From NCBI RefSeq assembly GCF_004339595.1, contig NZ_SMFU01000015.1, positions 62,001-126,000 on the forward strand: a stretch of DNA of 64,000 nucleotides. The letters are read 5' to 3'. The stretch is from Marinobacterium mangrovicola (GTDB lineage Bacteria > Pseudomonadota > Gammaproteobacteria > Pseudomonadales > Balneatricaceae). The notes below the pieces were generated by a model. The model had not been told where the DNA came from. It saw only the letters and a program-made list of their open reading frames with translations, and did not search any database. Of the stretch, positions 18,305 through 45,973 are shown piece by piece; position 1 is the first letter of the stretch; each line of letters starts with the position of its first letter. A program made the translations under genes and the position numbers.

Positions 18305-19825
18305 TCAGTAAAACTGAATGTATTTAGAATTCTGTTGTAAATAATACATGGCGTATCGAAGCTCCCCTTGGGTCTCGGCGCAAAGCTCAAGTAGCGGATC
18401 ACCTTTCGAAACTGAATCGCCTGCCTTGATAAAAATGCGAATCCCTGCCGCTTTGGCATTGGGCGCCCCTGCGAATTTGGCAAGATTTGCCAACTTGCGA
18501 TTATCGATCGCTTTTACCCTTCCATCGCTATCGGCCACAGCCAGGTGACGGAATTGTGGCTCTGGGATCTCTCTGAATCCGCCCTGCGCTTCACAGATCG
18601 CTTTGAACTTGTTCCATGCGGCGCCACTGCTTAGCAGCCGCGCTGCCCTGCCCACTCCAGCCCCCGTTGGCTCAAGCCCTGCCATTTCCAGGATCTGTCC
18701 GGCCAATAACAACGCTCGCTCGCGCAAGTCAGGCGGTGCATCCTGCCGATTACCGAGTACTGCCAGTACATCCTGCGCTTCGAAGGCGGGGCCTATTCCC
18801 TGCCCTATCGGTTGACTCCCATCGGTAATCACCGGCCGCACAATCAGGCCCAGGCGTTCGCCAACCTGTTCAAATACCCGTTTAAGGCCCAAAGCATCAG
18901 ACCTGGAGCGTATTTTTGCGGTTCGGCCCACCGGGATATCGATCAGGACATGGGTCGATCCGGCCGCGATTTTTTTCGACAGCACTGAGGCGACCAACTG
19001 TCCCTCGCTATCAAGGTCGATTGCTTTCTCAACCCGGATCAGGATGTCATCGACCGGACTGAGACTGACGTTTCCACCCCAGGCGAGACAACCGCCCTGT
19101 TCACGAACAACGCTCTGAATCTGTTCGAGATCGAGGTCCACCGGCGTTATAACCTCCATCGTATCGGCGGTCCCGGCCGGAGACGTGATAGAACGGGATG
19201 AGGTTTTCGGCATGGTAAGCCCGGCCGCGGTGACGATCGACACGACGATGGGTGTCGTTCTGTTGCCCGGCAGGCCGCCAATACAGTGTTTGTCGACGAC
19301 GATATCTGTTCCCGGCCACTCCAGCCGGGAGCCGACATCCACCATCGCCTGGGTCAGGTAGGCGGTTTCGTCGATATTGAGGCGGTTGGCACAGGCGGTC
19401 AGAAAACTTGCGATATGAACATCGGTATAGCGGCCGTGCAGTACATCGCTGACGATCGCCAGTAACTGCCTCTGATTGAGCGGATGCTCGAAAATCTTGC
19501 TGCGCACATAACTGAGTGAGTTAACCCAATCGGGGTGGCTGATGGAGACCCGGTCGCCGTCCTCCAGACCCAGCCTGTCCCAGGCAATTTTTGATAACCC
19601 AATCTGGCCCGCAGGAAGTATCGCTGAGAGGGATTCAACAACGTTGAGTCTGGCGATAACACTGTGGCCTCCAGCCTGAACCTGAACACGGGTCTGGACG
19701 CCAAAGCCCTCCGCTCGGCAGATATGGCAGTCATCGCGCATATACACCACCGACTCCTGATAGGTATCGATGCCGATACGGATCGCTTTAAGACTGTTTG
19801 GGTCGTTGGCCGATTGTTTCGACAT
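18305..19825 (-). CDS. Thymidine phosphorylase / AMP phosphorylase family protein
   Basis: This 506-aa protein has the glycosyltransferase-3 core: Lys-His-Cys-Ile-Gly-Gly-Leu-Pro-Gly-Asn-Arg-Thr-Thr (phosphate loop) and Ser-Ser-Arg-Ser-Ile-Thr-Ser-Pro-Ala-Gly-Thr-Ala-Asp-Thr-Met-Glu. There is an N-terminal extension of about 80 residues with Cys-His-Ile-Cys, and a C-terminal domain. This long form matches the archaeal AMP phosphorylase and bacterial putative thymidine phosphorylase group rather than the 440-aa DeoA. ATG 19825 is chosen because GGAGGT lies upstream. It appears to be the last gene of the first cop-box operon, 88 nt after the NfeD gene. Why a nucleoside phosphorylase sits behind a copper pump is unclear. 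Confidence 0.8.
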   Translation of the reverse strand: MSKQSANDPNSLKAIRIGIDTYQESVVYMRDDCHICRAEGFGVQTRVQVQAGGHSVIARLNVVESLSAILPAGQIGLSKIAWDRLGLEDGDRVSISHPDWVNSLSYVRSKIFEHPLNQRQLLAIVSDVLHGRYTDVHIASFLTACANRLNIDETAYLTQAMVDVGSRLEWPGTDIVVDKHCIGGLPGNRTTPIVVSIVTAAGLTMPKTSSRSITSPAGTADTMEVITPVDLDLEQIQSVVREQGGCLAWGGNVSLSPVDDILIRVEKAIDLDSEGQLVASVLSKKIAAGSTHVLIDIPVGRTAKIRSRSDALGLKRVFEQVGERLGLIVRPVITDGSQPIGQGIGPAFEAQDVLAVLGNRQDAPPDLRERALLLAGQILEMAGLEPTGAGVGRAARLLSSGAAWNKFKAICEAQGGFREIPEPQFRHLAVADSDGRVKAIDNRKLANLAKFAGAPNAKAAGIRIFIKAGDSVSKGDPLLELCAETQGELRYAMYYLQQNSKYIQFY

Positions 19826-19913
19826 ACCACCTCCGAAACCCCTCTCGGCGGTATAGGGGTTGGTTACAGTGAACAGGTTTGGATACCGATCTGACACTCG
19901 TCAGGACCGGGAA

Positions 19914-20308: not shown

Positions 20309-20662
20309 TTACTTACGCGGTACTTTATTGCAGCAATGGGGCTCGTAGCCCGCATTGTCCTTGATGTTTTGATCGACATAGCGGTAATAGCTGCGCTTGG
20401 TGCGATTCCACCAGTTAGTGGCGAAACCGGCGCCCCGCTTGCTCAGGATCGACTCCACCAGATCCAGGTTGCAATGGGTCGCGTCATAGGAGAAAGCCAG
20501 TGTTCCCGCGTCCGGGTCGTATGCCACACGGTCGACCCCAAACTGTTGCTCAATCTCCGCCACCAGCGCTTCTGCCTCCTGCCCCTGAATGCCTGACAGC
20601 TGTAGCTTGCGTGAAACCAAGTTGGCCTCCTTCACCCCTAGTTTGTGATCCTGATCGATCAT
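20309..20662 (-). CDS. HMA-fold-like small protein without CxxC, Cys-Cys tail (paralogue 1)
   Basis: This 117-aa soluble protein has a predicted beta-alpha-beta-beta-alpha-beta pattern like a heavy-metal-associated domain, with segments Ser-Arg-Lys-Leu-Gln-Leu, Val-Asp-Arg-Val-Ala-Tyr-Asp and Thr-Leu-Ala-Phe-Ser-Tyr-Asp-Ala. Where HMA domains carry Met-x-Cys-x-x-Cys, no such motif is present. The C-terminus reads Tyr-Tyr-Arg-Tyr-Val-Asp-Gln-Asn-Ile-Lys-Asp-Asn-Ala, then His-Cys-Cys-Asn-Lys-Val-Pro. A paralogue at 30684-31040 shares both parts and lies in the other cop-box operon. Probable copper-binding or sensing accessory protein; the function is not established. GGAG-type ribosome site before ATG 20662. 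Confidence 0.75.
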   Translation of the reverse strand: MIDQDHKLGVKEANLVSRKLQLSGIQGQEAEALVAEIEQQFGVDRVAYDPDAGTLAFSYDATHCNLDLVESILSKRGAGFATNWWNRTKRSYYRYVDQNIKDNAGYEPHCCNKVPRK

Positions 20663-20696
20663 TGTTCTCTCCTTTTATCCCGCTGTTGCTCACTGG

Positions 20697-20912
20697 CTAC
20701 TTGTCATTATCCTCTGCTGACCGTTCCTTACCGCCATGATGGTGATGCATAAACAAGTGCATCAACGGGCAGGCAAGAAAGATCAGATAAGGCAGCCAGG
20801 CCAACAGGTGATAGCCATGCGCTCTGACCAGGAAGCCGGCGCCGAGGGCCAGCACGGCTATCAGCAACAGCCCTTTTGGCGAGCAGCATGTACTTAACCA
20901 ACGCTTATTCAT
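20697..20912 (-). CDS. DUF2933 domain small membrane protein
   Basis: This 71-aa protein has one or two transmembrane stretches (about residues 12-29 and 35-54) and a His-rich end, Met-His-Leu-Phe-Met-His-His-His-His. The block His-Leu-Leu-Ala-Trp-Leu-Pro-Tyr-Leu and Ala-Cys-Pro-Leu-Met-His-Leu-Phe-Met-His is the DUF2933 signature, frequently found beside copper ATPases and multicopper oxidases. The Cys/Met/His cluster could bind Cu(I) at the membrane surface (inference). It lies between the cupredoxin and the HMA-like gene of operon 1, with 21- and 34-nt spacings. Confidence 0.85.
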   Translation of the reverse strand: MNKRWLSTCCSPKGLLLIAVLALGAGFLVRAHGYHLLAWLPYLIFLACPLMHLFMHHHHGGKERSAEDNDK

Positions 20913-20933
20913 TTGGACCTCCCACTGACTGTT

Positions 20934-21296
20934 CTATTCCACGATCAGCTCACCCCGGTACATCTGCATCTGGCAGGTGAAGGGGTAATGGCCGGGCTGC
21001 ATCGGTTGCAGGCGCACCTCTTTGGCCTGGTTCAGCGGCAGCTCCTCGCTGATATCGAAATCCTGGAATACGACCACGCTGGCGCAGGGAGAAGGGTCTT
21101 GTCGCACAAACCCGAGCACGGCAGGCTGGCCCGCCTTGATGCGAATATGTGCGGGTTCATAGACTCCGTTTTTCACACTAATGGTGATCCGCCCCTCATC
21201 GAGCTGGCTGGTGGGCCCCTGGTAAATCCAGAACCACCATACGATCAGCGCGATAAGGAGCAGGCCTAACAGGTTGATAATCAGCATCGCATTCAC
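20934..21296 (-). CDS. Membrane-anchored cupredoxin-domain protein
   Basis: This 120-aa protein has one N-terminal transmembrane helix (residues 4-24) and a single cupredoxin domain. Diagnostic segments are Ala-His-Ile-Arg-Ile-Lys-Ala-Gly-Gln-Pro-Ala, Asp-Pro-Ser-Pro-Cys-Ala-Ser-Val-Val-Val-Phe and the C-terminal Phe-Thr-Cys-Gln-Met-Gln-Met-Tyr-Arg-Gly. The usual Cys-x-x-x-His-x-x-x-x-Met copper loop is replaced by Cys-x-Met-x-Met, as in the cupredoxin group that accompanies copper ATPases. It starts 7 nt after the copA ATPase stop and probably hands Cu in the periplasm to or from the pump. Confidence 0.85.
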   Translation of the reverse strand: MNAMLIINLLGLLLIALIVWWFWIYQGPTSQLDEGRITISVKNGVYEPAHIRIKAGQPAVLGFVRQDPSPCASVVVFQDFDISEELPLNQAKEVRLQPMQPGHYPFTCQMQMYRGELIVE

Positions 21297-21303
21297 TTCC
21301 TGC

Positions 21304-23604
21304 TCAATGGTCCTGGGGTTTAAACAAACGCAGCCGGTTGGCGTTTGTCACAACGGTCAGTGATGAAAACGCCATCGCTGCGCCAGCGATCACCGGACTC
21401 AGCAACACCCCCATGAAGGGGTACAGCAGACCGGCAGCCACCGGCACACCGGCGGCGTTATAGATAAAGGCACCGAACAGATTCTGTCGGATGTTACGCA
21501 GGGTGGCGCGACTCACGGCAATGGCGTCGGCCAGGCCATGCAGGGAACCGCGCATCAGAGTCACATCGGCACTCTCGATCGCTACATCGGTGCCGGTCCC
21601 TATGGCGAACCCCACGTCTGCCAGCGCCAGCGCCGGTGCGTCGTTGATCCCGTCGCCGGTCATGCCGACAACCTCGCCCTGCTGCTGCAATTCAGCCACC
21701 TTGGCGGATTTATCCTCCGGCAACACTTCGGCAAAAAACTCACCGATTCCCACCTGATCCGCCACTGCCTTAGCGGTAGCGCGGTTATCGCCGGTCAACA
21801 TCACCACTCGAATACCGTTGTGTTGCAAACGCTGGATCGCCGCCACCGAATCCGCCTTGATTGGATCGGCCACCGCAATCAAGGCCAGCAGTTTTCCATC
21901 CGCCGCCAGATACATGGGGGTTTGCGCCTGTGCGGCCAGGGTCTGCGCCTGCTCCAGATGCTGATCGATATCGACCTGACGTTCCCGCATCAGCTTTTCA
22001 TTACCGAATAGTAGTGTTCGGCTCTCAACACGCCCTTCAACCCCATGGCCAGCGATAGCATTAAACCCTTCGACACTGCCCAGACTGAGTTCACGCTCTT
22101 TCGCGGACTCCACAATGGACTGAGCCAGTGGGTGCTCGGAACCCTGTTCCAGGGTCGCTGCAAGGCGCAGCACTCCGGCCTCATCCTCGACCGCCAGCGG
22201 CACTATCTCGGTCACTTTTGGAGTGCCTTCGGTAATGGTGCCGGTCTTATCCAGAATCATGGCGGTGATCTTTGAGGCTGTTTGCAGCGCCTGGCCGTTG
22301 CGGATCAGCACCCCGGCCTCAGCGGCCTTACCGACACCGACCATTACCGACATGGGCGTAGCCAACCCCAGCGCACAGGGACAGGCGATGATCAGCACGG
22401 TGGTGGCCGATACGATGGCAAAGGCTACAGCCGGCGCCGGACCGAAGTTAAGCCAGGCCAGGGCGCTTAGAACGGCGATGATCATCACGGTGGGCACGAA
22501 ATAGCCGGCGATTACGTCCGCCAACCGTCCTATGGGCGGCTTGGAATTTTGCGCCTGCTTCACCATCGATATGATCCGCGCCAGCGCCGTATCCTTACCG
22601 ACACGGGTTGCCTTGAACAGAAGTGTGCCCGACTTGTTGATGGTGCCGCCGACCACCTCAGCGTCTGCGCTCTTCTCAACCGGCATCGGCTCACCGGTCA
22701 GCATCGATTCATCCACCGAGGAGTGCCCTTCCAGCACCGTGCCATCGACCGGGATTTTCTCCCCGGGACGCACACGAACCTGGTCGTCCTGCAGCACCTC
22801 TGCGATGGGAATATCGACCTCCTGGCCATCACGCAGAACACGGGCGGTTTTCGCCTGCAGCCCGATCAGCCGCTTGATCGCCTCGGACGTTCTACCGCGC
22901 GCCCGAATTTCAAGAGCCAGCCCCAGGTCGATCAAACCGATGATCATCGCGGTAGCCTCAAAATAAACGTGGCGCGCCATCTCGGGCACGACGCCGGGGA
23001 AGAACACCACCACCATGGAGTAGAGCCAGGCGGTGCCTGTACCCAGCGCTATCAGCGTATCCATATTGGCGCTGTGGTTGATGAACGATTTCCAGGCGCC
23101 CACGTAAAAGTGGCGTCCGGAAAACAGCATCACCGCCAAGGTCGCCACGCCAACCAACAGCCAAGCGATCCGTTCTGCGGTTGTTGAAACCGTCATCTCA
23201 CCGATGAACAAGCCGTAGATCATCAGTGGCACGCCCAGTCCCAGGGCGATCGCCATCTCCCGCATCAGGCGTTTGTAGTATGCCTGGTCCGCCTGCTCCT
23301 TCTCATTGAGCAGATCTTCTGAGGACTCAGCCTGTGCCACCTTGGCGTCGTAGCCGGCCGCCTCAACGGCAGCAATCAGAGCCTTGTCCGAGACTTCGCC
23401 GTTAACACTGACGCTGCGTTGAGCAAAGTTCATCGATGCTTCGGTAACACCGGGCACCTGCTTTAACGCAGACTCAATTTTGCCGACACAACTGGCGCAG
23501 CCAGCGCCTTCGATCAGCAGTTCGTGTGCAGTACTGCTTGCTCCGGCGGCCGCGTTGCCAGGGTTGTGATGGCAATGTTCGCTGTGATGGTTCTTGTCAT
23601 GCAT
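21304..23604 (-). CDS. copA: Copper-translocating P1B-type ATPase CopA
   Basis: This 766-aa Cu(I) exporter of the inner membrane has a His-rich first 15 residues and one N-terminal HMA domain with Gly-Cys-Ala-Ser-Cys-Val-Gly-Lys (about residues 34-41). It has Thr-Gly-Glu-Pro-Met-Pro in the actuator domain, the membrane copper motif Cys-Pro-Cys-Ala-Leu-Gly, the phosphorylated Asp in Asp-Lys-Thr-Gly-Thr-Ile-Thr, and Gly-Asp-Gly-Ile-Asn-Asp-Ala-Pro. It is the first gene of a leftward operon with cupredoxin, DUF2933, the HMA-like protein, NfeD and the phosphorylase. A cop-box promoter lies at 23648-23703. The multicopper oxidase at 24025 bears the same symbol by tradition but is unrelated. Confidence 0.95.
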
Positions 23605-23647
23605 AACTACTGCTCCACTTTGGAAATAACCGTATTTCCTATGAAAC

Positions 23648-23703
23648 AGTATGGATCATGCACCACGACATGAAACTGACCGCCAGATTACATCTTTGTA
23701 AGG
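23648..23703 (-). promoter_or_regulatory. CopR-type cop-box promoter of the copA ATPase operon
   Basis: Palindrome GATTACA-TCTT-TGTAAgg (23686-23703, plus strand) matches the TTACA-N4-TGTAA box of CusR/CopR-type regulators. Read leftward, it is followed after exactly 32 nt by the -10-like CATACT (23648-23653). Between them lies GGTCAGTTTC, which is shared with the promoter at 31231-31286. Confidence 0.75.
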
Positions 23704-23786
23704 CTGAATAGAGGCGGCCGGTTAATACACGCGCGCTGGCCCAGCCTGCCAACTGTTGAAAGGCGATTCTTACTGGCAGCATGAGG

Positions 23787-23850
23787 CTGTCGCCAGGCGC
23801 CCCGCCTGTAACCTGTCAGAAATATCATCTTCATGTCAGCCTGGCGACAG
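23787..23850. repeat. 12-bp inverted repeat upstream of copA oxidase
   Basis: CTGTCGCCAGGC (23787-23798) is the exact reverse complement of GCCTGGCGACAG (23839-23850), with 40 nt between. It lies in the leader region before the small ORF at 23896 and the copA oxidase. It may form a leader stem or hold two regulator half-sites. Confidence 0.6.
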
Positions 23851-23895
23851 ACCGCATCGTTACTCTAAGTGCTTCACTTTATCGGAGGAATCGCC

Positions 23896-23982
23896 GTGGC
23901 ATTCGTCAACCCCAGCCTTCTGGCCCTGTACGTGTCGGCGGTTCTCGCGCTGGCGGTTGCCAGCGCATCCCTTCAAGCCTGA
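23896..23982 (+). CDS. 28-aa hydrophobic leader-like ORF
   Basis: A GTG start preceded by TCGGAGGAAT encodes 28 residues that are almost wholly hydrophobic (Ala, Val, Leu, Ser), ending 42 nt before the copA oxidase. A good ribosome site and a continuous membrane-like stretch support translation. It could be a single-span membrane peptide or a leader peptide controlling copA. It is too short to assign by family. Confidence 0.45.
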   Translation: MAFVNPSLLALYVSAVLALAVASASLQA

Positions 23983-24024
23983 GTCCTTAATTTCCCATTC
24001 AGATAGCTGTATAAGGAGTTCCCC

Positions 24025-25758
24025 ATGCGACTTGGACATGCGGTAAGAGGATTACTCGCGGTCGCAGCACTGGCCCCGTTAAGCACGCTGGCCGGCACAT
24101 ACGATCTGGTAATCGACCAGCAAGCGCTGTCCATTGATGGCACGGCGAAGAGCGCCATGACCATCAACGGCGGTATCCCCGGCCCCACGCTGCGCTTCAA
24201 GGAGGGTGAGGAGGTTACTCTTAACGTGACCAACCAACTCGATGTCGATACATCGCTCCACTGGCATGGCCTGCTGGTGCCCTACACCGAAGATGGCGTA
24301 CCGGGCATCAGTTTCGACGGCATAAAGCCAGGCGAAACCCACACCTACCATTTTCCTATCAAGCAGAGCGGCACCTACTGGTACCACAGCCACTCCGGCT
24401 TTCAGGAACAGGAAGGGGTCTACGGTCCAATCATCATCGAGCCAGCCAAAGCTGAGCCGTTCACGTTCGACCGTGAATATGTAGTGATGCTGTCGGACTG
24501 GTCAGCGGAAAGCGGCGACCAGATCTTCGCCAACCTCAAGGGTCAGAGCGACTACTACAACTACCACCAGCAGACTGCCGGCAGCTTTATCCAAGAGGCC
24601 AGAGAACAGGGTTTCGGCACAGCTCTGAAGGAACGCCTCAGTTGGGGCGGCATGCGTATGATGCCCACCGATATCGCCGATGTGTCGGGTTACAGCTTCC
24701 TGGTCAACGGCAAATCCGCCGGGGATAACTGGACAGGGCTGTTCACGTCCGGCGAGAGGGTGCGGCTGCGCTTCATCAACGGCTCTGCGATGAGCTATTT
24801 CGATATCCGCATTCCCGGTCTCAAAATGACCGTGGTGCAGGCCGACGGCAACAATGTACAGCCGGTCAGCGTCGATGAATTCCGCATGGCGGTGGCTGAA
24901 ACCTACGATGTGATCGTAGAACCCAAAGAGGAGCGCGCCTATTCAATCCTGGCCGAGTCTGTCGACCGCGCAGGCTTTGCCCGCGGCACCCTGGCTCCCC
25001 GGGACGGAATGGCAGGCGACATTCCCGAGCTGCGTGAACGGCCGCTGCTGACCATGGCCGATATGAGCATGGCCAGTATGGAAGGGATGGATCACTCCAA
25101 TATGACGGATATGGATCATTCTAATATGGCGGATATGGCTAAACCCGCTATGGCAGCCACCAGCCAGGCCAGTATGGCGAATATGAACCAGCCCGCTATG
25201 GAGGGTATGAATCATTCAGCCATGAACGGTATGAATCAGTCGCCGATGAATGCCGCCAAACAGCCGAGCAGCGATTATGCCCCTGGTAGCGGCTTAACCC
25301 CCTCTGCCGCCAACGGTGGCAAGTTCCTAGTCTATGGAGACCTCAAGGCGGTGACGCCCTACGCCGACTACCGCGCCCCGGACCGGGAAATTGAGCTCCG
25401 CCTCACCGGCAATATGGAGCGCTATTTCTGGTCGATCAACGGCACCAAATATTCCGATGCTGAGCCAATCAAAATGACCTACGGCGAGCGGGTGCGAATC
25501 AAATTTGTCAACGACACCATGATGAACCACCCCATGCACCTGCACGGCATGTGGATGCAGCTCGACAAGGGCAAAGGTGAGTTCAATCCGCTGAAGCACG
25601 TCGTCAATGTCGCGCCCAATACCACTCTGACGGTGGATGTTCCGGCGGATGCGCTGGGTGAATGGGCATTCCATTGCCATCTGATGTACCACATGGCGTC
25701 GGGCATGTTCCGCAAGGTGATAGTGGAAACCCCTGCTGACCAAACTGCAGCACTGTAA
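24025..25758 (+). CDS. copA: Copper resistance multicopper oxidase CopA (PcoA type)
   Basis: This 577-aa exported oxidase has a signal peptide (about residues 1-23; no clear twin-arginine), three cupredoxin domains and all four copper motifs: His-Trp-His-Gly, Trp-Tyr-His-Ser-His-Ser, His-Pro-Met-His-Leu-His-Gly and His-Cys-His-Leu-Met-Tyr-His. Between domains 2 and 3 is a Met-rich stretch (about residues 346-410) built from repeats such as Met-Asp-His-Ser-Asn-Met and Met-Glu-Gly-Met-Asn-His; the DNA at 25087-25134 is a 24-bp tandem duplication. CopA oxidises Cu(I) and sequesters copper in the periplasm. It is followed 12 nt later by copB. Confidence 0.95.
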   Translation: MRLGHAVRGLLAVAALAPLSTLAGTYDLVIDQQALSIDGTAKSAMTINGGIPGPTLRFKEGEEVTLNVTNQLDVDTSLHWHGLLVPYTEDGVPGISFDGIKPGETHTYHFPIKQSGTYWYHSHSGFQEQEGVYGPIIIEPAKAEPFTFDREYVVMLSDWSAESGDQIFANLKGQSDYYNYHQQTAGSFIQEAREQGFGTALKERLSWGGMRMMPTDIADVSGYSFLVNGKSAGDNWTGLFTSGERVRLRFINGSAMSYFDIRIPGLKMTVVQADGNNVQPVSVDEFRMAVAETYDVIVEPKEERAYSILAESVDRAGFARGTLAPRDGMAGDIPELRERPLLTMADMSMASMEGMDHSNMTDMDHSNMADMAKPAMAATSQASMANMNQPAMEGMNHSAMNGMNQSPMNAAKQPSSDYAPGSGLTPSAANGGKFLVYGDLKAVTPYADYRAPDREIELRLTGNMERYFWSINGTKYSDAEPIKMTYGERVRIKFVNDTMMNHPMHLHGMWMQLDKGKGEFNPLKHVVNVAPNTTLTVDVPADALGEWAFHCHLMYHMASGMFRKVIVETPADQTAAL

Positions 25759-25770
25759 GGAGTCGATGAG

Positions 25771-26502
25771 ATGACTGTAAAAATGGCATACCGGACACCG
25801 ATGGGTATCGCTTTAACGCTGCTGACGCTTGGGCTGCCGGGACTCACAAACGCCGCAGAGGGTGACGATGCGGTTATGACCAAGTTCATGCTGGACCGGC
25901 TCGAAGTACGCGATGCGGATGACAGCGAAAAACTCGGCTACTGGGAGGGTCAGGTCAACATTCGCACCGACTATCAGGGGATGGCGTTCAAGGCCAAAGG
26001 CGAGCGTCCTGAAGGCGGCCCCACCGAAAGCGCCGAGTACCAGTTACTCTATCAGCGACTGGTATCAGATTTTTTCGATGCCCAGTTTGGTATCCGCTAC
26101 GACAATCAACCCGGCCCCTCCCGTACCTACGCGGTAGCCGGACTGCAGGGACTGGCGCCCTATTTCTTTGAGGTAGACGCCAACCTGTTCCTGAGCGATG
26201 AGGGCGATATGTCGGCCCGCGCCGAAGCAGAATACGATCTGCTGCTGACCCAGCGACTGATTCTGCAGCCCGCGGCTGAACTCAATGTCGCCTTCAGCGA
26301 CGACGAGGAGCTCGGCATTGGCTCGGGATTTAGTTCGGCTGAACTGGGGCTACGCCTGCGATACGAGGTAACCCGGAAAATCGCGCCCTATATCGGCGTG
26401 CAGTGGGAAAGGAAATTGGGCAACACCGCCGATTACGCTCGGGATGAAGGCGAGGATGTAGAGTCAACCGCGTTCACACTGGGTATCACCGCCTGGTTCT
26501 GA
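25771..26502 (+). CDS. copB: Copper resistance outer membrane protein CopB
   Basis: This 243-aa protein has a signal peptide (residues about 1-29) followed by Phe-Met-Leu-Asp-Arg-Leu-Glu-Val-Arg. A beta-strand-rich body follows in CopB/PcoB style, with Leu-Tyr-Gln-Arg-Leu-Val-Ser, Phe-Asp-Ala-Gln-Phe-Gly-Ile-Arg-Tyr-Asp, Phe-Glu-Val-Asp-Ala-Asn-Leu-Phe and a final Phe as in outer membrane barrels. The Met/His-rich N-terminal spacer of Pseudomonas CopB is missing, giving a short version. AAGGAG precedes ATG 25771, and the gene is co-transcribed with copA. It is thought to bind or pass copper at the outer membrane. Confidence 0.92.
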   Translation: MTVKMAYRTPMGIALTLLTLGLPGLTNAAEGDDAVMTKFMLDRLEVRDADDSEKLGYWEGQVNIRTDYQGMAFKAKGERPEGGPTESAEYQLLYQRLVSDFFDAQFGIRYDNQPGPSRTYAVAGLQGLAPYFFEVDANLFLSDEGDMSARAEAEYDLLLTQRLILQPAAELNVAFSDDEELGIGSGFSSAELGLRLRYEVTRKIAPYIGVQWERKLGNTADYARDEGEDVESTAFTLGITAWF

Positions 26503-26513
26503 GGTAGCTCTAC

Positions 26514-26555
26514 CGGGGTGTCGAGTAGAGTCATTCCCCACTGTTCGGCACCCCG
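26514..26555 (+). terminator. Hairpin after copB
   Basis: CGGGGTG-T-CGA (26514-26524) pairs with TCG-G-CACCCCG (26545-26555). There is no U-tract, so it is a probable 3' end structure rather than a proven terminator. Confidence 0.45.
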
Positions 26556-26621
26556 CTCTACCGCTGAAATGAGCCTCCTCGCCATCATGGTCAGGAGATT
26601 TTCGAGGCCCCTTTTATCCAC

Positions 26622-27803
26622 ATGTTTGAGCCACTCCATTACTTAACCAATGAACTGGTTGCCACCTATTTCAGCCATTCACATTGGTGGCTGCACACAA
26701 CCATATACTGGATCCTGCTCGGGTCGCCGTTAATTCTTTCTGGGCTACTGAGTTGGCGTCTGTACAGGATAGCCGTTAGCTGTTTTCGCAAAAGCCGCCA
26801 GGTTTTCCCCGTAAAATCAAGACTCAGTAAAATGCACAGAGAGATTAACGGGACACTGTGCGCCTACATTGTTTTTAAAACCGGCAAACAACAACTGCTG
26901 CTTTTTCTGTTGGCACTGCTTTCGCTGCCACTACTTTACCTCTCGCTTGAGATACCTAAGCATATCGTCAATCACGCGATCGGATCCGACGCATTTCCCA
27001 TCGATATTTACGGCGTGAAGCTCGGTCAGGTCCAGTTTCTGTTCGGTCTCTGCCTGCTCTACCTGCTGTCAATCAGCCTGAACGGTTCTATTAAATATGC
27101 TGTTAACCTGTCGAAAGGCCGGCTGGCCGAGTCGATCCTGAGACGATTGCGCGTCAAGGTTTATGTCCTCTGGTACAGACTCAACAGCGGCGGCAACCAG
27201 TCACAGATCATCCCGCTTATGGTGCAGGAACTGGAGGCGATTGCGGGCTTTGCCGGCGACATCGTGGTTTTGCCCGTGTTTCAGGGAGGGACCTTCCTGA
27301 CTATCCTGTTTTTTCTGTTCATGCAGGATCCGATGCTCGGCGCCGCTGCGCTGTCACTGCTTCCCGTGCAACTTGTTGTCATCCCGCGTATGCAGAAAAA
27401 GGTCAATCAACTGGGCCGCTTGCGCATGAAAGAAGCGCGTTACCTGGGGCATATTATCGGCGAAGGGAACGAGCAGACACCGGCTAAAACCGCGTCCGCG
27501 TTTGCGACGATTCGCAAACTTCAGGCAATACGGATCGAAATATACCAGCGCAAGTTCTTAATGAAGGGGCTTTATAATTTCATAACCCATTTAACACCGT
27601 TTTTCTTCTATACCATTGGCGGCTATCTGGTAATCGAAGGCCAGCTGACATTCGGTGCGCTGATCGCGGCACTGGCGGCGCATAAGGATTTTGCTGCACC
27701 TCTGCGAGAGCTGTTCAAATACTATCAAACCCTAGAAGATGTACGTATGAGATGGGACGAACTGGTTGGACTGATAAAACGCGGGCACTCACCCACGAAG
27801 TGA
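26622..27803 (+). CDS. ABC transporter transmembrane-domain protein lacking an ATPase domain
   Basis: This 393-aa polytopic protein has hydrophobic segments near residues 25-45, 90-110, 140-160, 220-250 and 325-350, in the layout of a type-1 ABC exporter membrane domain. The elbow/coupling-like stretch reads Gly-Arg-Leu-Ala-Glu-Ser-Ile-Leu-Arg-Arg-Leu-Arg, and the domain end reads Leu-Thr-Phe-Gly-Ala-Leu-Ile-Ala-Ala-Leu-Ala. The chain stops where the nucleotide-binding domain would start (Leu-Val-Gly-Leu-Ile-Lys), and no ATPase gene lies nearby. It could be a truncated transporter or a stand-alone membrane protein that borrows an ATPase. Located downstream of copAB, probably with its own promoter. 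Confidence 0.65.
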   Translation: MFEPLHYLTNELVATYFSHSHWWLHTTIYWILLGSPLILSGLLSWRLYRIAVSCFRKSRQVFPVKSRLSKMHREINGTLCAYIVFKTGKQQLLLFLLALLSLPLLYLSLEIPKHIVNHAIGSDAFPIDIYGVKLGQVQFLFGLCLLYLLSISLNGSIKYAVNLSKGRLAESILRRLRVKVYVLWYRLNSGGNQSQIIPLMVQELEAIAGFAGDIVVLPVFQGGTFLTILFFLFMQDPMLGAAALSLLPVQLVVIPRMQKKVNQLGRLRMKEARYLGHIIGEGNEQTPAKTASAFATIRKLQAIRIEIYQRKFLMKGLYNFITHLTPFFFYTIGGYLVIEGQLTFGALIAALAAHKDFAAPLRELFKYYQTLEDVRMRWDELVGLIKRGHSPTK

Positions 27804-27869
27804 ATCGCCCCGCTTACAGCACCGTTTTTAATACGGGCGATCAGCGCCTGAGCCACCGCGTCAGCACAG

Positions 27870-28193
27870 TCACGCGGCCAAAGCCCAGATTAAAAACGCT
27901 GCTCGGGATCTCCCCCCAGGGCAGCGTTTCTTGTCTCTGAAGTTTTGCAAAGTCCGCTGCTTCGATGGCGGTGCCTGTACCGAGTAGCCCGCTTTTTCCA
28001 CCGCTTCGATAAGTATAAGGCGCTCCCGTTGGGTATTGGAGTGCGTATCGGCACCGTTCGATTGCCAGGCTGCAACCTCATCGACGTAATCAACCTTCTT
28101 CAGCGCCGCTTCCAAGCGGCCGACGCAGGAGGCACAACCCATGTTTCAATGGGTAGACTGCTTAGACGAATACTGTTGTACCTGAATCTCCAT
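27870..28193 (-). pseudogene. Decayed HMA-domain (copper-binding) gene
   Basis: A strong ribosome site (AAGGAGGT) precedes ATG 28193, but the frame meets TGA at 28146-28148 after 15 codons. Directly after it the same frame gives Met-Gly-Cys-Ala-Ser-Cys-Val-Gly-Arg-Leu-Glu-Ala-Ala-Leu-Lys and then Ala-Val-Glu-Lys-Ala-Gly-Tyr-Ser-Val, a clear HMA domain. Just upstream, another frame reads Leu-Pro-Ile-Glu, the strand that normally precedes Gly-Met-Gly-Cys-Ala-Ser-Cys, so a small indel broke the gene. The C-terminal 35 residues are not HMA-like. Likely a remnant of a copper chaperone or the N-terminus of a copper ATPase. Confidence 0.65.
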
Positions 28194-28260
28194 CACCTAC
28201 CTCCTTACAAGCTTTTGATGATGAAATTCAGGGACCATAAACCTCCCGATAATGGGAAAG

Positions 28261-29436
28261 TCAAGACACAGGCACAGCAAATATCAATATAAACCCGAGG
28301 GCTATCGCCACCAGAGCGAACCGGACCCGCTCCCTGTGATTTCCACAGACACTGAATGCCACCAGGCATTGCAGCAGGTAGTAGAGTGCAAAGGCTCTGG
28401 ATGCCAGCGCGATAACGGTGAATGTCGATCCCGTCCACGCCAGTACCAGCGTCGCCACGCCAACCAGCAGGTAACCCCAGCGCGGATGCAATCGCCCGCG
28501 GGTGACCTCCCCAAGATTAGACACGGCAGCCAGGGTATCGGCCACAGCCGCGGAAAACTGGGACAGTGCCGCCGCCAGAATCAACGGCATGGATAACAGG
28601 AATGAGACGCTGACAGTGAGCTTTATCAGGCTGTTGTCTTCGTATTGTCCGTTCAGCACCGGCACTATCGGTAACGTGACGATAACAAAGACGATATACA
28701 CCGACAGCGCGCAGTATTGCGACCAGCGAGACGCACGGATACGGGTCCAAGTATCGAAGCGCTGTCCCAGATAACGCGGCGTTTCAAAGCCCTGCACCAC
28801 GATTAGAGTACCGGACACTATCGTCAGGATCTCCCAGAAGGAGCGATCCGGCATCTTTGGCAAGGGCAGATAACCCGTTTCCAGAAACAGGTCGACATCA
28901 TGCAGCGCAAAGCCAAGGATCAGCACCAATACCACAGCCAGAGTCAGATAAAGCGCCAGCTGTTCCAGACGCTCAAGCGGCGCCAGGCCACCGAAGAGAC
29001 CTACCAGGGTGATCAGCACCACCAGAATGGAGGTTAACAGGCTTTTGTTGAACTCGCTGTCCAGCTCCAAACGGCCAAGAGCGAAGGCGCTGAGGATATG
29101 CAGGTACAGACACACCGACACAATGTAAGCCAACACCAGCGCAGCATCAGAAGCGCGCTCCAGCATGACCGTCAGCTTTTTATTGCCGGCAGCCAGCACC
29201 GGTTCGGCGCAGAGTATGTTGTGTCGTACGATGGCACCGGTCTGGAAGGCGATCACCGAGATCGCCAACATGGCCAGCACTGCGTAAGGCCCAACACCGC
29301 TCGCCAGTACAGGTACGATGACAAGAAAGCCGCTGCCGAATATGGAGGCCAGCGGCGTACTCATGGCCGGTATAATCTGCCCTGGTCCTGTCGAAGGCTG
29401 GGCAGGGTGACAGCCGTTCATGTTACGGCGACTCAT
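28261..29436 (-). CDS. APC-superfamily-like multi-span membrane transporter
   Basis: This 391-aa protein is hydrophobic throughout, with about eleven transmembrane segments. It opens with a glycine-rich unwound-helix motif, Ser-Ile-Phe-Gly-Ser-Gly-Phe-Leu, reminiscent of the Gly-Thr-Gly-Ile-Phe motif of APC/LeuT-fold permeases. No Na+-site or NRAMP signature (Asp-Pro-Gly-Asn) is present, so the substrate is unknown. It starts 10 nt after the cytochrome c gene and is part of the second cop-box operon. A role in amino acid or metal-chelate movement during copper stress is only a guess. Confidence 0.6.
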   Translation of the reverse strand: MSRRNMNGCHPAQPSTGPGQIIPAMSTPLASIFGSGFLVIVPVLASGVGPYAVLAMLAISVIAFQTGAIVRHNILCAEPVLAAGNKKLTVMLERASDAALVLAYIVSVCLYLHILSAFALGRLELDSEFNKSLLTSILVVLITLVGLFGGLAPLERLEQLALYLTLAVVLVLILGFALHDVDLFLETGYLPLPKMPDRSFWEILTIVSGTLIVVQGFETPRYLGQRFDTWTRIRASRWSQYCALSVYIVFVIVTLPIVPVLNGQYEDNSLIKLTVSVSFLLSMPLILAAALSQFSAAVADTLAAVSNLGEVTRGRLHPRWGYLLVGVATLVLAWTGSTFTVIALASRAFALYYLLQCLVAFSVCGNHRERVRFALVAIALGFILIFAVPVS

Positions 29437-29446
29437 AGCTCAGCCA

Positions 29447-29860
29447 TCAACGGTGGCTCTGAGAGACGATGCCGTTGGCTTCCTGTACTTCGCGGATAAA
29501 TTTCACGATAGCCGAGGATTCGTAGAAGCCTACTGCCTGCTTGGGCATATCGCCGTAGGGCCAGTGATGTTGGCGCGTACCGTTACGCATGGCGGTGTAT
29601 ATCGCTTTGTCGCTATGGTGACCCGGGTTATAGATCGGATGTATCAGCGGGGGTCCCTTCAAGGTTCCTGCGCCATTGTCGGCGTGGCACTCCGCACAGG
29701 TTGCATTGAACGCTTTTTGCCCGGCACTGGCCAACTCACTGAGTTTGGGTACACTGACATCCACATGCCATTCACTATGGTCCGCCACGGCCAGGTTGGC
29801 CGACAGCAGCGCAACCAGAGCCAGTCCGGAACGCAGTTTCAGTAACTGACTTAACAACAT
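29447..29860 (-). CDS. Periplasmic c-type cytochrome (mono-haem)
   Basis: This 137-aa protein has a signal peptide (cleavage near Ala-Val-Ala-Asp, residue about 26), one haem site Cys-Ala-Glu-Cys-His (about residues 56-60), a downstream Gly-Pro-Pro-Leu-Ile-His loop, and the probable axial Met in Tyr-Gly-Asp-Met-Pro-Lys. It is a class I cytochrome c and could accept electrons in the periplasm, for example from Cu(I) oxidation (inference). GAGGAA precedes the start. It lies between the Met-rich protein and the permease within operon 2. Confidence 0.85.
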   Translation of the reverse strand: MLLSQLLKLRSGLALVALLSANLAVADHSEWHVDVSVPKLSELASAGQKAFNATCAECHADNGAGTLKGPPLIHPIYNPGHHSDKAIYTAMRNGTRQHHWPYGDMPKQAVGFYESSAIVKFIREVQEANGIVSQSHR

Positions 29861-29985
29861 AAGCGTTCCTCTTCGCTACTACCTTTAACACTTTGGGGCA
29901 GTTTAGCAGCGCTTGCTGCGCCGCCATGAGTGACCTTTAACAGGCGCGAGTGGATCCCGCCCCTGTTTCAAGGCTTATACCAGGC

Positions 29986-30618
29986 TTATTTTCTCTGTTG
30001 CTGCAACAGCTCCTGCATCAGATCAAGACGCTTATCCATCTGACGATAGGCTTCCATCATGCCCACGCAGTTCATCTGGCCGTTCATCATCCCCATGCCT
30101 TTCATCATTCCCATACCGCCGCCCTGCTGCATGCCACCCATCATGCCTAGGGTTTCCTGCAATTGCTGACGGTGCTCTTGCATCAGTTCCATCCGCTTAT
30201 CGGCATCGTCGGTGTCCATGATCCGGTCCATACCGGCCTGCATCATCTGCATGCGCTGCATCATCGGCATCATACCGCCCTGACCGCCCATCATCCCCAT
30301 GCCGCCCATCATGCCACCACCTTGCTGCTGCATTCCGCCCATCATGCCGCGGAACTCGGTCATCGCCTTGCGGTGCTCCTCCATCAATTCCCGCCGTTGT
30401 GCCGGGTCGTCGGTGGTCGCCAACTGATCGGCCAGGTTTTGCATCTGCTCCAGCCGTTCCTGCATCAATGGCTGCATCGGCGACTGCATTGTTGCACCAG
30501 CCATCCCGGCGGGCGTTCCACTTTGGGCTCCCGCATCAGGATGATGATCCTGCTGGGCCCAGCTAAAAGGGCTGGCAAAAACCAACATCAGCATGAATAC
30601 CAACGGTTTCTTTTTCAT
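29986..30618 (-). CDS. Secreted Met-rich protein with repeated helical module
   Basis: This 210-aa protein has a signal peptide (ending Phe-Ser-Trp-Ala-Gln) and 42 or more methionines concentrated in Gly-Gly-Met-Met-Gly-Gly-Met stretches. At least two helical modules follow the pattern Met-x-x-Leu/Ile-x-x-x-x-Asp-Thr/Asp-Asp-x-Arg-x-Glu-Leu-Met-x-Glu-His-Arg, and a third partial one ends Asp-Leu-Met-Gln-Glu-Leu-Leu. Met-rich periplasmic proteins bind Cu(I) through thioethers, so a copper buffer is likely. The same module occurs in the protein at 46130-46558. CCGGAG ribosome site. It is the third gene of the cop-box operon. Confidence 0.75.
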   Translation of the reverse strand: MKKKPLVFMLMLVFASPFSWAQQDHHPDAGAQSGTPAGMAGATMQSPMQPLMQERLEQMQNLADQLATTDDPAQRRELMEEHRKAMTEFRGMMGGMQQQGGGMMGGMGMMGGQGGMMPMMQRMQMMQAGMDRIMDTDDADKRMELMQEHRQQLQETLGMMGGMQQGGGMGMMKGMGMMNGQMNCVGMMEAYRQMDKRLDLMQELLQQQRK

Positions 30619-30683
30619 TGTCTTTGCTCCGGATAGTTCATCGTTTTGCCTGGCGCATAGATCTCACTCAAACCAGGCCGCAG

Positions 30684-31040
30684 TTATTTCCGTGGTGGAA
30701 CCTTGCTGCAGCAAAACGGCTCATGCTTCGCGTTATCCTTGATATTCTGGTCGGTATAGCGATACCAACCCTCTTTGAATCGGGTCCACCAACCCTGGTC
30801 CAGATCGCTGCCGTGACTGCGAACAATGGCCTCTATCTGATCAAGTTGCAGAACAGAGGCGTCATAGGCGATATCCAGTCGCTGGCTGTCCGGGTCGAGT
30901 CTGACGCTATCGACTCCTCTCAGTGGCTCGATCTCCTCTGCGATTGCCGCTGCCTTGCCGGCATCCAAAGACTCCAGAAGCAGGTGCCGTTGGACCAGAA
31001 AAGCCTCGCGTACACCTGGTTTGTGCTCTGTATGAGACAT
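30684..31040 (-). CDS. HMA-fold-like small protein without CxxC, Cys-Cys tail (paralogue 2)
   Basis: This 118-aa protein is clearly homologous to the product of 20309-20662. Shared features are Val-Arg/Lys-Glu-Ala, then Leu-Glu-Ser-Leu/Leu-Ser-Gly-Ile, the Asp-Ser-Val-Arg-Leu-Asp-Pro-Asp strand, the Tyr-Asp-Ala segment, Trp-Trp-x-Arg-x-Lys, Tyr-Arg-Tyr-x-Asp-Gln-Asn-Ile-Lys-Asp-Asn-Ala, and the ending Phe-Cys-Cys-Ser-Lys-Val-Pro-Pro. ATG 31040 is preferred over the upstream TTG at 31058 because GGAG lies 8 nt before it. It follows the 45-aa ORF whose stop overlaps this leader. Family function is unknown; copper binding through the double Cys is inferred. Confidence 0.78.
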   Translation of the reverse strand: MSHTEHKPGVREAFLVQRHLLLESLDAGKAAAIAEEIEPLRGVDSVRLDPDSQRLDIAYDASVLQLDQIEAIVRSHGSDLDQGWWTRFKEGWYRYTDQNIKDNAKHEPFCCSKVPPRK

Positions 31041-31054
31041 ATCGCTCTCCTTCT

Positions 31055-31192
31055 TCAAATATCGTTTAACCGATTGCCACCCATCGCCATCTGGATCACT
31101 TCGTGGTGCTTCAGCTCAATCAGATAATGCGGCAAACGGCGATGAGGCTCAGCGGTCCAGAGGAGCAGATCTTTCAAGGTTTCGACTTTCAT
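31055..31192 (-). CDS. 45-aa small protein heading the second cop-box operon
   Basis: This short ORF from ATG 31192 to TGA 31055 encodes an amphipathic, His-rich peptide beginning Met-Lys-Val-Glu-Thr-Leu-Lys-Asp-Leu-Leu-Leu-Trp and containing Pro-His-Arg-Arg-Leu-Pro-His-Tyr and Lys-His-His-Glu. It is the first ORF after the promoter at 31231-31286, and its stop lies 15 nt before the start of the HMA-like gene, next to that gene's ribosome site, so it may be translationally coupled. Base composition is coding-like, and the product is helical. No known family recognised. Confidence 0.6.
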   Translation of the reverse strand: MKVETLKDLLLWTAEPHRRLPHYLIELKHHEVIQMAMGGNRLNDI

Positions 31193-31230: not shown

Positions 31231-31286
31231 AGTATGGTTGAGCAGCGCCGACAGGAAACTGACCTGCTGATTACATTTTTGTAATC
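31231..31286 (-). promoter_or_regulatory. CopR-type cop-box promoter of the second copper operon
   Basis: Perfect palindrome GATTACA-TTTT-TGTAATC (31269-31286). Read leftward, after exactly 32 nt comes CATACT (31231-31236), with GGTCAGTTTC between, as at 23648-23703. It also lies about 280 nt upstream of the sensor kinase gene on the other strand and could autoregulate it. Confidence 0.8.
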
Positions 31287-31564
31287 AACGGCTCGTGGCG
31301 CTGATTTAATGCCAGACTGCAGCCTGTCGGCACTGTGCCCTAAAGAGTGCTCGGAGGCGCTGCGATAAAACAGGCCCAGACCTGCACACAACGATTATCC
31401 TGCTTGCTAAAGGGCCATTGATAGCGTCCAGAAAAATGATTTTTCGCAGCAATATCATTGCATTAGCGATACAGTGGATGCATAACAACAAGATGCCCCT
31501 TTCCCCGGTAACGGATTTGCAAAACCAGGGGAATGACCTAAGGGATGGAGAAAACGAGCCAACC

Positions 31565-32953
31565 ATGATTTCACTGACCACGCGCCTGACACTGCTGTTC
31601 GTACTGGTATCCGTCGCAATCTTTACGGTGCTTGGATTTATGATTCAGCACTCGCTTTCAAACCACTTTGCGACCCAGGATTTTTCGGAGCTGGGCGACA
31701 AGATCAAGGCGACGGTTCGTCTCCTGGAGCGAACCCAACGCTCTGACTCAGCCACTGCGATCGCGCTTTCGATCGAAGAGGCGATCGTGGATCACGACAG
31801 CATCATCGTTCGCATCGATACCGCCGACGGCGACAACCTGTTCTCCATCAGCCCGATCACCGTGCCCTATAACGTCGAGAATCTACTTCTTAAGCCGGGT
31901 CAGGCGGAACGACGGGAGTGGCAGCAAGGCGAAATCGCATACCGAGGACTCGCCATGGCGACTCCAGGCGGTACAGCGGGTAGCCCTGCCTTGATCATAT
32001 CGACTGCCATGGAAACCACCCGTCACGCGGCTTTCATGGATAACTTTTCCAGCAAACTGGTTGGCCTGATGATTGTGGCAACAATGCTCAGCGCCCTGCT
32101 CGGTTGGTGGGTATCCCGTCAGGGTCTGGCGCCGCTGCGGAGCATGGGCGCCAAGGCCAAGTCGGTAACCGCCAAGCGACTTGATCAACGCCTGGCGGTG
32201 GAGTCACTGCCCGTCGAGCTGGGCGCGCTGGCGATCGAGCTCAACCTGATGCTTGACCGTCTGCAAGAGTCATTCAACCGTCTGACGCATTTCTCCTCCG
32301 ATATCGCCCATGAGCTGCGAACCCCGATAAGTAACCTGGTAATGCAAACACAGGTTTCCCTCGCCGCCCCCCACACCGAGCAGGAGCTGGAGGATGTGCT
32401 CTACTCCAACCTTGAGGAGTTCGAAAGGCTATCGCGGATGACCTCGGATATGCTTTTCCTCGCGAAGGCCGAAAACAGCATGAAACTGCCGTCCAGCGAG
32501 CGCTTCAAGCTGGAGGACGAAATCATAAAGCTGTTCGATTTTTATGAGGCACTGGCGGATGAACGTAGTCTCACCCTGCGTATGCAGGGCGGCGGTGAGC
32601 TGGCGGGAGATCGCATCATGATAGATCGCGCGATCAGCAACCTGCTCTCCAACGCCATACGCCACACGCCGGAGAACGGGCAAATCGATGTGGAGATCGA
32701 GCACAGGCCGGATGTTCTTCAGGTGCAGATAAAGAATACCGGCACTCCCATAGCCGACAGTGAACTGCCTTACCTGTTCGACCGTTTTTACCGCTGCGAC
32801 CGGTCTCGCTGCAATACGGACCATGAGGGTACCGGTCTTGGCCTGTCGATTACCCGCGCCATCGTCAAAGCCCATGGCGGCAGTATTGAAGTCCATTCAG
32901 ATAAGAACAACACCTGCTTTACGCTGATTTTCCCTGAGCAGGAGCGGGCCTGA
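31565..32953 (+). CDS. Heavy-metal sensor histidine kinase (CusS/CopS type)
   Basis: This 462-aa inner membrane kinase has transmembrane helices at about residues 9-28 and 160-180 flanking a 130-residue periplasmic sensor. A HAMP domain follows, then the phosphoacceptor His in [10 protein letters not shown], an N box [11 protein letters not shown] and a G box Gly-Thr-Gly-Leu-Gly-Leu-Ser. This architecture and the HAMP-proximal sequence are those of the heavy-metal sensor kinases. An in-frame ATG 147 nt upstream is less likely because it would add a non-signal N-terminus. The kinase precedes its response regulator, the reverse of the usual cusRS order. Confidence 0.88.
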
Positions 32954-33000: not shown

Positions 33001-33678
33001 GTGAAGTTGCTGATCGTTGAAGATGAAATCAAAACCGGTGACTATCTGCAGAAAGGGCTCACCGGAGCGGGCTACAGCGCTGACCTGGTACGCACCGGTA
33101 TTGACGGGCTGATGCAGGCCACCTCCCAGAGTTATGACCTGATAGTGCTGGATGTCATGCTACCTGAACTGGATGGCTGGCAGATCATCAAGGCACTGCG
33201 CGACAAGGGCTATCAGGTGCCGGTGCTTTTTCTAACCGCCCGTGACGAAGTTGAAGACCGGGTCAAAGGCCTGGAGCTGGGCGCCGACGACTATCTGGTC
33301 AAGCCCTTCGCCTTCTCGGAGCTGCTCGCCCGGGTGCGCAGCCTGCTGCGACGGGGCAAGACTTCGCTGGAACCCACGCTGCTGGAGGTTGCAGGGCTGC
33401 AACTCGATCTGGTTAAACGCCGGGCTATTCGTGATGAACAACGCATCGACTTAACCGCCAAGGAGTTTCTGTTACTTGAGCTGCTGATGCGACGTCAGGG
33501 CGAAGTTCTGCCCCGTTCGCTGATCGCATCCCAGGTATGGGATATGAACTTCGACAGTGATACCAATGTGATAGAGGTCGCCATGCGCCGCCTGCGTAGC
33601 AAGGTCGATGAGCCCTTCTCACCTGCGCTGATCCATACCGTCCGTGGTATGGGATACGTCCTCGAGCCCCGGGACTAA
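33001..33678 (+). CDS. Heavy-metal response regulator (CusR/CopR type, OmpR family)
   Basis: This 225-aa protein has a receiver domain with acidic Glu-Asp-Glu near residue 10, phosphorylated Asp in Ile-Val-Leu-Asp-Val-Met-Leu-Pro (about residue 51) and Lys in Val-Lys-Pro-Phe-Ala. A winged-helix C-terminus follows with Arg-Arg-Leu-Arg-Ser-Lys-Val-Asp and Thr-Val-Arg-Gly-Met-Gly-Tyr-Val-Leu. It starts with GTG 47 nt after the kinase. It is the likely reader of the TTACA-N4-TGTAA boxes at 23.7 and 31.3 kb, giving copper-responsive control of both leftward operons. Confidence 0.92.
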
Positions 33679-45374: not shown

Positions 45375-45514
45375 GCGCAAACATTTGCGTCACAGTACGG
45401 GGCACGGCTGGCATTCCCTCTATGCTGGCATATTCTTTAGGTAAAGAGGCCCGCCGGCCTGGCGATAAAACGGCACTGCCGGCGAAATCCAGGCAGCGCG
45501 TAAAGGAGGCAAAC

Positions 45515-45973
45515 ATGCAGATCGATACGTTTCGCGACATCATTCACTGGACGCGAGCCTACCATCAGCAGTTATCCGAGTGGCTGCGCAACAGTGGCAG
45601 CGCCCAGCACGATGAACGAGCACAGATGCTGCTCGATTACCTGGCGGACCATGAGGCAAAACTGTCCCGGGCGATCACCGCTTTCGAGGCGACGGATAAC
45701 CTCAACGCCCTGGATACCTGGGTGATGGAGTTTCTCGACAAGAAGCCTCTGCTACCCTCCGCCAGTCTGGGCGCGCCTTTCGCGGATATGAGCGCAGACG
45801 AGATTATCGCCAAGGTCGAGGATGAACATAACCAGATCGTCGAGCTTTACCGTTTTCTGGTCAGCCGGGTGAATACCACACCGGCCGCAGACCTGCTGGA
45901 AGAGCTGGCCGACCTGGAACAACACGAGGCGATGCGGCTCTCCCAGGCGGCGAACCGGCTACACGATATCTGA
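45515..45973 (+). CDS. Helical-bundle protein, ferritin-like, unknown function
   Basis: This 152-aa protein, predicted all-helical, is without signal peptide. It carries repeated Glu/His pairs (Asp-His-Glu-Ala-Lys-Leu, Glu-Asp-Glu-His-Asn-Gln-Ile-Val, Glu-Gln-His-Glu-Ala-Met), as in ferritin-like or hemerythrin-like metal sites, and ends with a basic helix. The start ATG 45515 has AAAGGAGG directly upstream, so I chose it over the in-frame codon at 45422. No family is certain. It may handle iron or oxygen, and its place after the ars operon may be accidental. Confidence 0.65.
   Translation: MQIDTFRDIIHWTRAYHQQLSEWLRNSGSAQHDERAQMLLDYLADHEAKLSRAITAFEATDNLNALDTWVMEFLDKKPLLPSASLGAPFADMSADEIIAKVEDEHNQIVELYRFLVSRVNTTPAADLLEELADLEQHEAMRLSQAANRLHDI

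Follow-up and report, generated by a model that had tools for sequence, protein, structure and literature searches.

HMA-fold proteins without CxxC and with a C-terminal cysteine dyad in two cop-box operons of Marinobacterium mangrovicola

The CxxC motif of the HMA domain is the textbook signature of copper chaperones, and a gene position near copA is a frequent, though not obligatory, trait of those of the CopZ type. Here we describe P0002 and P0003, two proteins encoded on a 64,000-nucleotide stretch of the Marinobacterium mangrovicola genome (contig NZ_SMFU01000015.1, positions 62,001 to 126,000; hereafter the window). Like members of the CopZ/Atx1 group (HMA, PF00403; Bacillus subtilis CopZ, 2qif), they have an HMA core, are cytosolic by sequence and are encoded near copA, but they lack the loop-1 MxCxxC and add about 35 C-terminal residues, a helix and a tail, with a Cys-Cys/Cys-His dyad. 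On balance, we lean towards reading them as cytosolic, CopZ-derived Cu(I)-handling proteins whose metal ligands would have been relocated.

Four further systems offer points of comparison. In the eukaryotic protein CCS, the copper chaperone for SOD1, a mobile C-terminal CxC (domain III) is described as providing intermediate chelation in copper transfer (PMC6383938). CCS resembles P0002 and P0003 in joining an HMA-like domain to a C-terminal cysteine motif, whereas the two window proteins are bacterial, carry a tail of CC or CH rather than CxC and lack the MxCxxC that CCS domain I retains; at 117 and 118 residues, with an HMA fold at 15-82 followed by one helix, they also have no superoxide dismutase (SOD)-like domain II. 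The mercuric reductase MerA has two vicinal Cys residues at its C terminus, and its protein family also bears an HMA domain, NmerA, at the N terminus (PMC3466566); MerA is a flavoenzyme, however, and what it may have in common with P0002 and P0003 is the idea of an arm only. Pseudomonas aeruginosa CopZ1 and CopZ2, of coexisting CxGC and CxHC types, have been proposed to serve separate copper pools (review, PMC7558416); CC and CH tail types likewise coexist in the present family, side by side in four loci, but here the candidate ligands lie in the tail and not in loop 1. Finally, Alteromonas carries merR-copA-cupredoxin-DUF2933-ICMT clusters on a plasmid and on genomic islands (PMC8478169), which is the gene neighbourhood of our family; the cluster description in that paper does not name this gene, and 'cation transporter' occurs 0 times in its main text. 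Among the papers listed in searches of an open-access library, none describes the family.

HMA fold and relatives of P0002 and P0003

The two open reading frames listed in a preliminary description of this DNA exist where it placed them; both proteins are read from the minus strand, and the plus-strand translations of the same coordinates are other products. As that description proposed, P0002 and P0003 are paralogues (47% identity over 117 residues, E 4e-39), and their close homologues come from Marinobacterium species. The cysteines of P0003 are Cys110 and Cys111 only; P0002 has Cys64 in addition, leaving 110 and 111 as the only ones common to both. The MxCxxC loop-1 Cu(I) motif of CopZ-type chaperones is absent from both sequences.

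The HMA-like pattern without CxxC that had been claimed for the pair is borne out by profile and model. Neither protein reached a curated Pfam or NCBIfam cutoff in protein searches (Pfam HMA: P0003 23.9 bits against a cutoff of 24.8, P0002 only 12.5 bits), P0003 being borderline, since its stretch scored 24.8 bits in an HMA search of its own genome and was flagged over the cutoff. A 12-row profile was significantly similar to known HMA proteins, namely a copper-ion-binding protein of Bacillus anthracis (2l3m, E 7e-4) and CopZ (2qif, E 2e-3). In the AlphaFold model of P0002 (mean predicted local distance difference test score, pLDDT, 71.9), an HMA fold (residues 15-82) is followed by a long helix (82-104) and a short tail; the model matches CopZ 2qif with a template-modelling (TM) score of 0.85, normalised on the target, and 68 residues of the HMA core align with a root-mean-square deviation of 1.4. 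An ordinary CopZ is ruled out by the absence of CxxC, and a new fold by the structural match to 2qif. No signal peptide was seen by eye, and although the label 'cation transporter' might hint at a membrane protein, that reading was rejected because no 19-residue stretch reaches a hydropathy of 1.6 in 105 homologues.

Relatives found in genome searches are of three main kinds: (i) the window type, without CxxC; (ii) proteins with a true HMA domain, CxxC included, plus the same helix and tail; and (iii) proteins with a YHS domain ahead of a CxxC-less HMA and a similar tail. Profile comparison relates (i) to (ii) at 99.7% (E 1.6e-25, 109 columns including the tail) and (i) to (iii) at 99.3% (E 2.6e-20), and the profile of kind (ii) alone gives strong matches to ATP7B, MerP and CopZ. 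Because of the match between (i) and (ii) and the HMA matches of (ii), the window proteins would appear to derive from proteins having both sites, or to have a common ancestor with them, the direction of change being a point that we infer. Since an HMA CxxC persists in relatives that have this tail, the sequences place P0002 and P0003 as a lineage inside the HMA/CopZ superfamily. The "new family" of the preliminary description is new, then, in that Pfam and NCBIfam hold no dedicated family for these proteins, and not in standing apart from that superfamily. In a wide set of 62 members, Pfam HMA was matched by 18 and an NCBIfam CopZ model by 28 (E ≤ 0.01), and C..C occurs in 4 of the 105 homologues, by eye at another place than loop 1. 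The ratio of nonsynonymous to synonymous substitution rates (dN/dS) is about 0.1 where dS is unsaturated, indicating constraint. Open frames of 533 to 964 amino acids were reported in three genomes; we do not claim fusion to large proteins, because the frames extracted from fetched loci span only 118 to 142 amino acids. Viral carriage was likewise rejected, with 0 relatives among 34 pattern stretches in viral contigs.

Other tails accompany similar bodies. Two loci (L035:312-722 and L039:1441-1848, both plus strand) encode a similar HMA-like body with the tail GCRDxRPEHxRRYL, not Cys-Cys, and the CxxC-less bodies of L015, L016, L017, L018 and L020 have a tail of class CC[SG]NP and then a basic end.

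Conservation of the tail dyad

P0002 and P0003 share the tail YRYxDQNIKDNA...CC[NS]KVP, as first described, but the exact CCxKVP is not general: relatives have [CSG]C[NSHG] with K-V-P variable, and the aligned tails are better summarized as [CS]C[NSH]. The tail is nevertheless conserved in homologues, contrary to the outcome that the preliminary description had named as telling against its proposal. Among 107 window-type homologues, defined by a line of our own choosing (>70 bits), Cys111 is present in 106, and a chance tail is ruled out by this conservation. A narrower set of 105 rows comprises those with a readable tail pattern, so that Cys111 in 105 of 105 is partly built in; the figure to rely on is 106 of 107. 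The two rows above 70 bits outside that set are L215, whose match ends early with no tail Cys, and L175, in which residue 110 is ambiguous and Cys111 and His112 are present.

The 105 homologues also retain Tyr59 (105), Asn99 (105), Asp97 (102) and Trp85 (100). Their triad at 110-112 reads SCH in 57, CCN in 23, CCS in 17, CCH in 5, CCG in 2 and GCH in 1. Thus Cys110 is missing in 58 rows and His112 in 42, both together in none, and double absence stays at 0 when the set is thinned to below 70, 60 and 50% identity (50, 33 and 20 rows; naive probabilities, which ignore kinship, of 1e-9, 2e-5 and 1e-3). A tree built without the tail calls for at least 6 changes at Cys110 and at least 5 at His112. 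Such alternation of Cys-Cys with Cys-His suggests that one soft-metal ligand is swapped for another. Tyr59 and Cys111 are the only invariant residues of a 62-row alignment hand-picked from 85, which omitted L029, L036 and L040, without tail Cys, so that the invariance does not hold for all relatives. In four loci (L192, L193, L195 and L197) the genes form tandem pairs, a CCN-type gene followed directly by an SCH-type gene.

Two alternatives to Cu(I) handling turn on these figures. The proteins could be regulatory HMA mimics that carry no copper, dock on the N-terminal HMA of CopA or on CopZ and tune the pump, with the tail Cys used for docking or as a redox switch; we think this unlikely, since docking alone needs neither the terminal Cys-Cys/Cys-His alternation nor the retention of Cys111 in nearly all window-type rows. 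A thiol-redox or other non-metal role, with the copper context reflecting mere operon membership, is the least probable of the explanations weighed here: adjacent cysteines can form disulfides and the metal evidence is indirect, but the SCH forms, more than half of the 105, have one dyad Cys, and ligand replacement fits them better than a disulfide.

Copper operons and neighbouring genes

A search of the entire 4.98 Mb genome for ATTACANNNTTGTAA, the pattern that we take as the CopR/CusR-type regulator box, gave exactly two sites, at 23687 and 31270 of the window, and 0 for the reversed control pattern. One paralogue belongs to each cop-box operon, as had been noted. In operon A, copA comes first, followed by the cupredoxin-domain gene, the DUF2933 gene and P0002; in locus B, P0003 is the first intact gene, followed by the Met-rich protein and the small cytochrome c (Table 1). 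The earlier remark that two copies are kept describes these operons correctly but omits a third, more divergent paralogue (36% identity to P0003) on another contig, outside the window. A two-copy layout, with one copy in a copA operon and a copy of the Cys-Cys-Ser (CCS) triad type near other copper genes, recurs in two further genomes (L092; L093+L094). Promoter and terminator scans gave no excess over shuffled sequence. In relatives' loci, surveyed with the 16-base form and at most 1 mismatch, cop boxes were present in 9 of the 43 core loci, in 4 of the 21 others and in none of the 20 controls; the majority of core loci are without one, and several carry a gene of MerR type in its place (16 of 41 core regions).

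Gene context was compared across 41 core regions (43 hand-chosen among search matches, 2 dropped at <8 kb), 18 other-architecture regions (21 including L128, 3 dropped) and 20 control regions (18 from core-set genomes, 2 from other-set genomes). Consistent with the copper context first proposed for the box-sharing window operons, a listed copper gene lies in 35 of the 41 core regions versus 0 of 20 controls, and in 11 of the 18 other-architecture regions. CopA itself, the neighbour typical of CopZ-type chaperones, is present in 30 core regions (in 28 of them no more than 3.5 kb away and on the same strand), DUF2933 in 23 and cupredoxin in 21, against 0 of 20 controls for each.

This context bears on which metal, and which partner, might be served. 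Vicinal Cys pairs bind many soft metals, and the ligand might be Ag, Hg or Cd, or several metals, and not copper specifically; RND genes (14 of 41 core regions versus 1 of 20 controls) and a Cd/Pb-type regulator near one locus point that way. The commonest tested neighbours, however, are the Cu-ATPase, DUF2933 and cupredoxin, and both window copies stand behind copper-type boxes, so we give this explanation a small chance. A slimmer prospect still is an assembly factor delivering copper to one cuproprotein, for instance the multicopper oxidase or the cupredoxin encoded nearby. Multicopper oxidase or CopB genes occur in 14 of 41 core regions and cupredoxin in the 21 noted above, but in just 3 of the 41 are the former both within 3.5 kb and on the same strand. 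Moreover, the proteins show neither a signal peptide, as judged by eye, nor a membrane-span-like stretch, whereas such targets are expected to act outside the cytoplasm.

By taxonomic rank, matches were obtained from 54 of 398 genomes searched for the phylum, 38 of 369 for the class, 31 of 244 for the order and 36 of 116 for the family, tallies that each count the host genome. A second family in the class gave matches in 39 of 196 genomes and a third family in 6 of 24, and 18 of 72,556 plasmid records had one. Thresholds and query types varied between searches, and weak matches may be ordinary ATPase HMA domains. The plasmid records mostly annotate the gene as a hypothetical protein or 'cation transporter'.

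Table 1 Features of the window around P0002 and P0003
Feature	Coordinates	Strand	Basis
P0002, 117-amino-acid HMA-fold protein without CxxC, tail HCCNKVP	20309..20662	-	Sequence, paralogue comparison, AlphaFold model
P0002 tail dyad Cys110-Cys111 codons	20330..20335	-	Read from sequence; conservation among homologues
P0003, 118-amino-acid paralogue of P0002, tail FCCSKVP	30684..31040	-	Sequence, Pfam, paralogue comparison
P0003 tail dyad Cys110-Cys111 codons	30708..30713	-	Read from sequence
cop box, 1 mismatch, between copA (-) and multicopper oxidase (+)	23687..23702		Pattern search
cop box, perfect, between locus B (-) and sensor kinase gene (+)	31270..31285		Pattern search
CopA-type Cu(I) P1B-ATPase, one N-terminal HMA (GCASC), first gene of operon A	21304..23604	-	Domain searches
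Cupredoxin-domain protein (Cupredoxin_1), N-terminal membrane anchor by eye	20934..21296	-	Pfam
DUF2933 small protein	20697..20912	-	Pfam
NfeD-like protein, downstream of P0002	19914..20243	-	Pfam
Thymidine/AMP phosphorylase-family gene	18305..19897	-	NCBIfam
Multicopper oxidase (PcoA/CopA type), divergent from copA	24025..25758	+	Named from sequence
CopB-like outer-membrane copper protein	25771..26502	+	Named from sequence
Met-rich protein directly downstream of P0003, secreted by eye	29986..30618	-	Sequence
Small cytochrome c, locus B	29447..29860	-	Pfam
Copper-type sensor histidine kinase; true start perhaps further in	31418..32953	+	Named from sequence
CopR/CusR-type response regulator, likely reader of cop boxes	33001..33678	+	Named from sequence

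A gene of the thymidine/AMP phosphorylase family is a recurrent neighbour of the copper cluster, present in 6 of the 41 family regions. Before P0003, a 45-amino-acid frame (31055-31192, minus strand) matches a family of about 150 amino acids that is complete in L122, L123, L198 and L011 and is called 'ATPase' in one record; by eye only both ends remain, as if a large internal part had been deleted. A full-length member of that family was recognized by eye at 45422-45973 (plus strand), with no Pfam family above cutoff. The fragment at 27870-28142 (minus strand) opens with 24 residues that match an HMA CxxC stretch at 25.4 bits, resembling by eye the N-terminal HMA of another CopA in the genome (L149), then degenerates, and is likely a copA or copZ remnant.

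A predicted role in Cu(I) handling

The preliminary description suggested a copper sink, a chaperone or an assembly factor as possible roles; among the options considered, we favour a buffer or shuttle as the candidate role. Under copper stress, the two-component system would turn on both operons; the tail dyad, Cys-Cys or Cys-His, would hold Cu(I) as a swinging arm, one that may be likened to the CxC-bearing C terminus of CCS in eukaryotes or to the terminal Cys pair of mercuric reductase. The HMA body would dock on CopA in the manner of CopZ, Cu(I) would pass from the arm to CopA for export, and at high copper the protein would double as a buffer.

Several observations weigh against this proposal. 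Cu(I) binding, docking on CopA and a copper phenotype are all matters that we infer. The structure prediction suggested earlier as a check on whether the tail cysteines meet the fold yielded the HMA fold, but the P0002 tail is modelled at pLDDT <50, giving no modelled support for a dyad site or a dyad-fold contact; the tail is probably flexible. The only independent Cys110/His112 pairs on supported branches of the tree number 3, which is not significant. L215, at 80 bits, is without the tail, and the 54 weaker matches (<70 bits) comprise 41 with CC, 5 with CH and 8 with neither. Among these 8 exceptions are the YHS-type L029, L036 and L040, the other-tail L035 and L039, an 837-amino-acid frame in the CopA-like part of L100, and L127 (54 bits), which breaks the alternation with a single Cys then Ser and no His, in a locus with no listed copper gene. 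Six of the 41 core regions, including that of the host's third paralogue, are without listed copper genes nearby, and two-component genes occur in 5 of 20 controls, so that their presence near the family says little. Finally, a canonical CopZ is encoded elsewhere in the host genome, on a different contig and with more HMA domains nearby, and P0002 and P0003 would therefore not be the host's sole chaperones.

Because the host also has this canonical CopZ, a second copper pool or a buffer role is plausible for P0002 and P0003, by analogy with the proposal made for CopZ1 and CopZ2 in Pseudomonas aeruginosa. More tentatively, the copper site may have moved from the loop-1 CxxC to a C-terminal arm, with intermediates carrying both CxxC and tail still extant and Cys-Cys and Cys-His arms paired for two pools or relay steps; we regard this fuller scenario as possible, though doubtful. 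If Cu(I) handling by a relocated site is correct, docking fold and metal site would be separable in evolution. For an unassigned gene that copper operons carry on plasmids and chromosomes, the proposal also supplies a candidate that can be tested.

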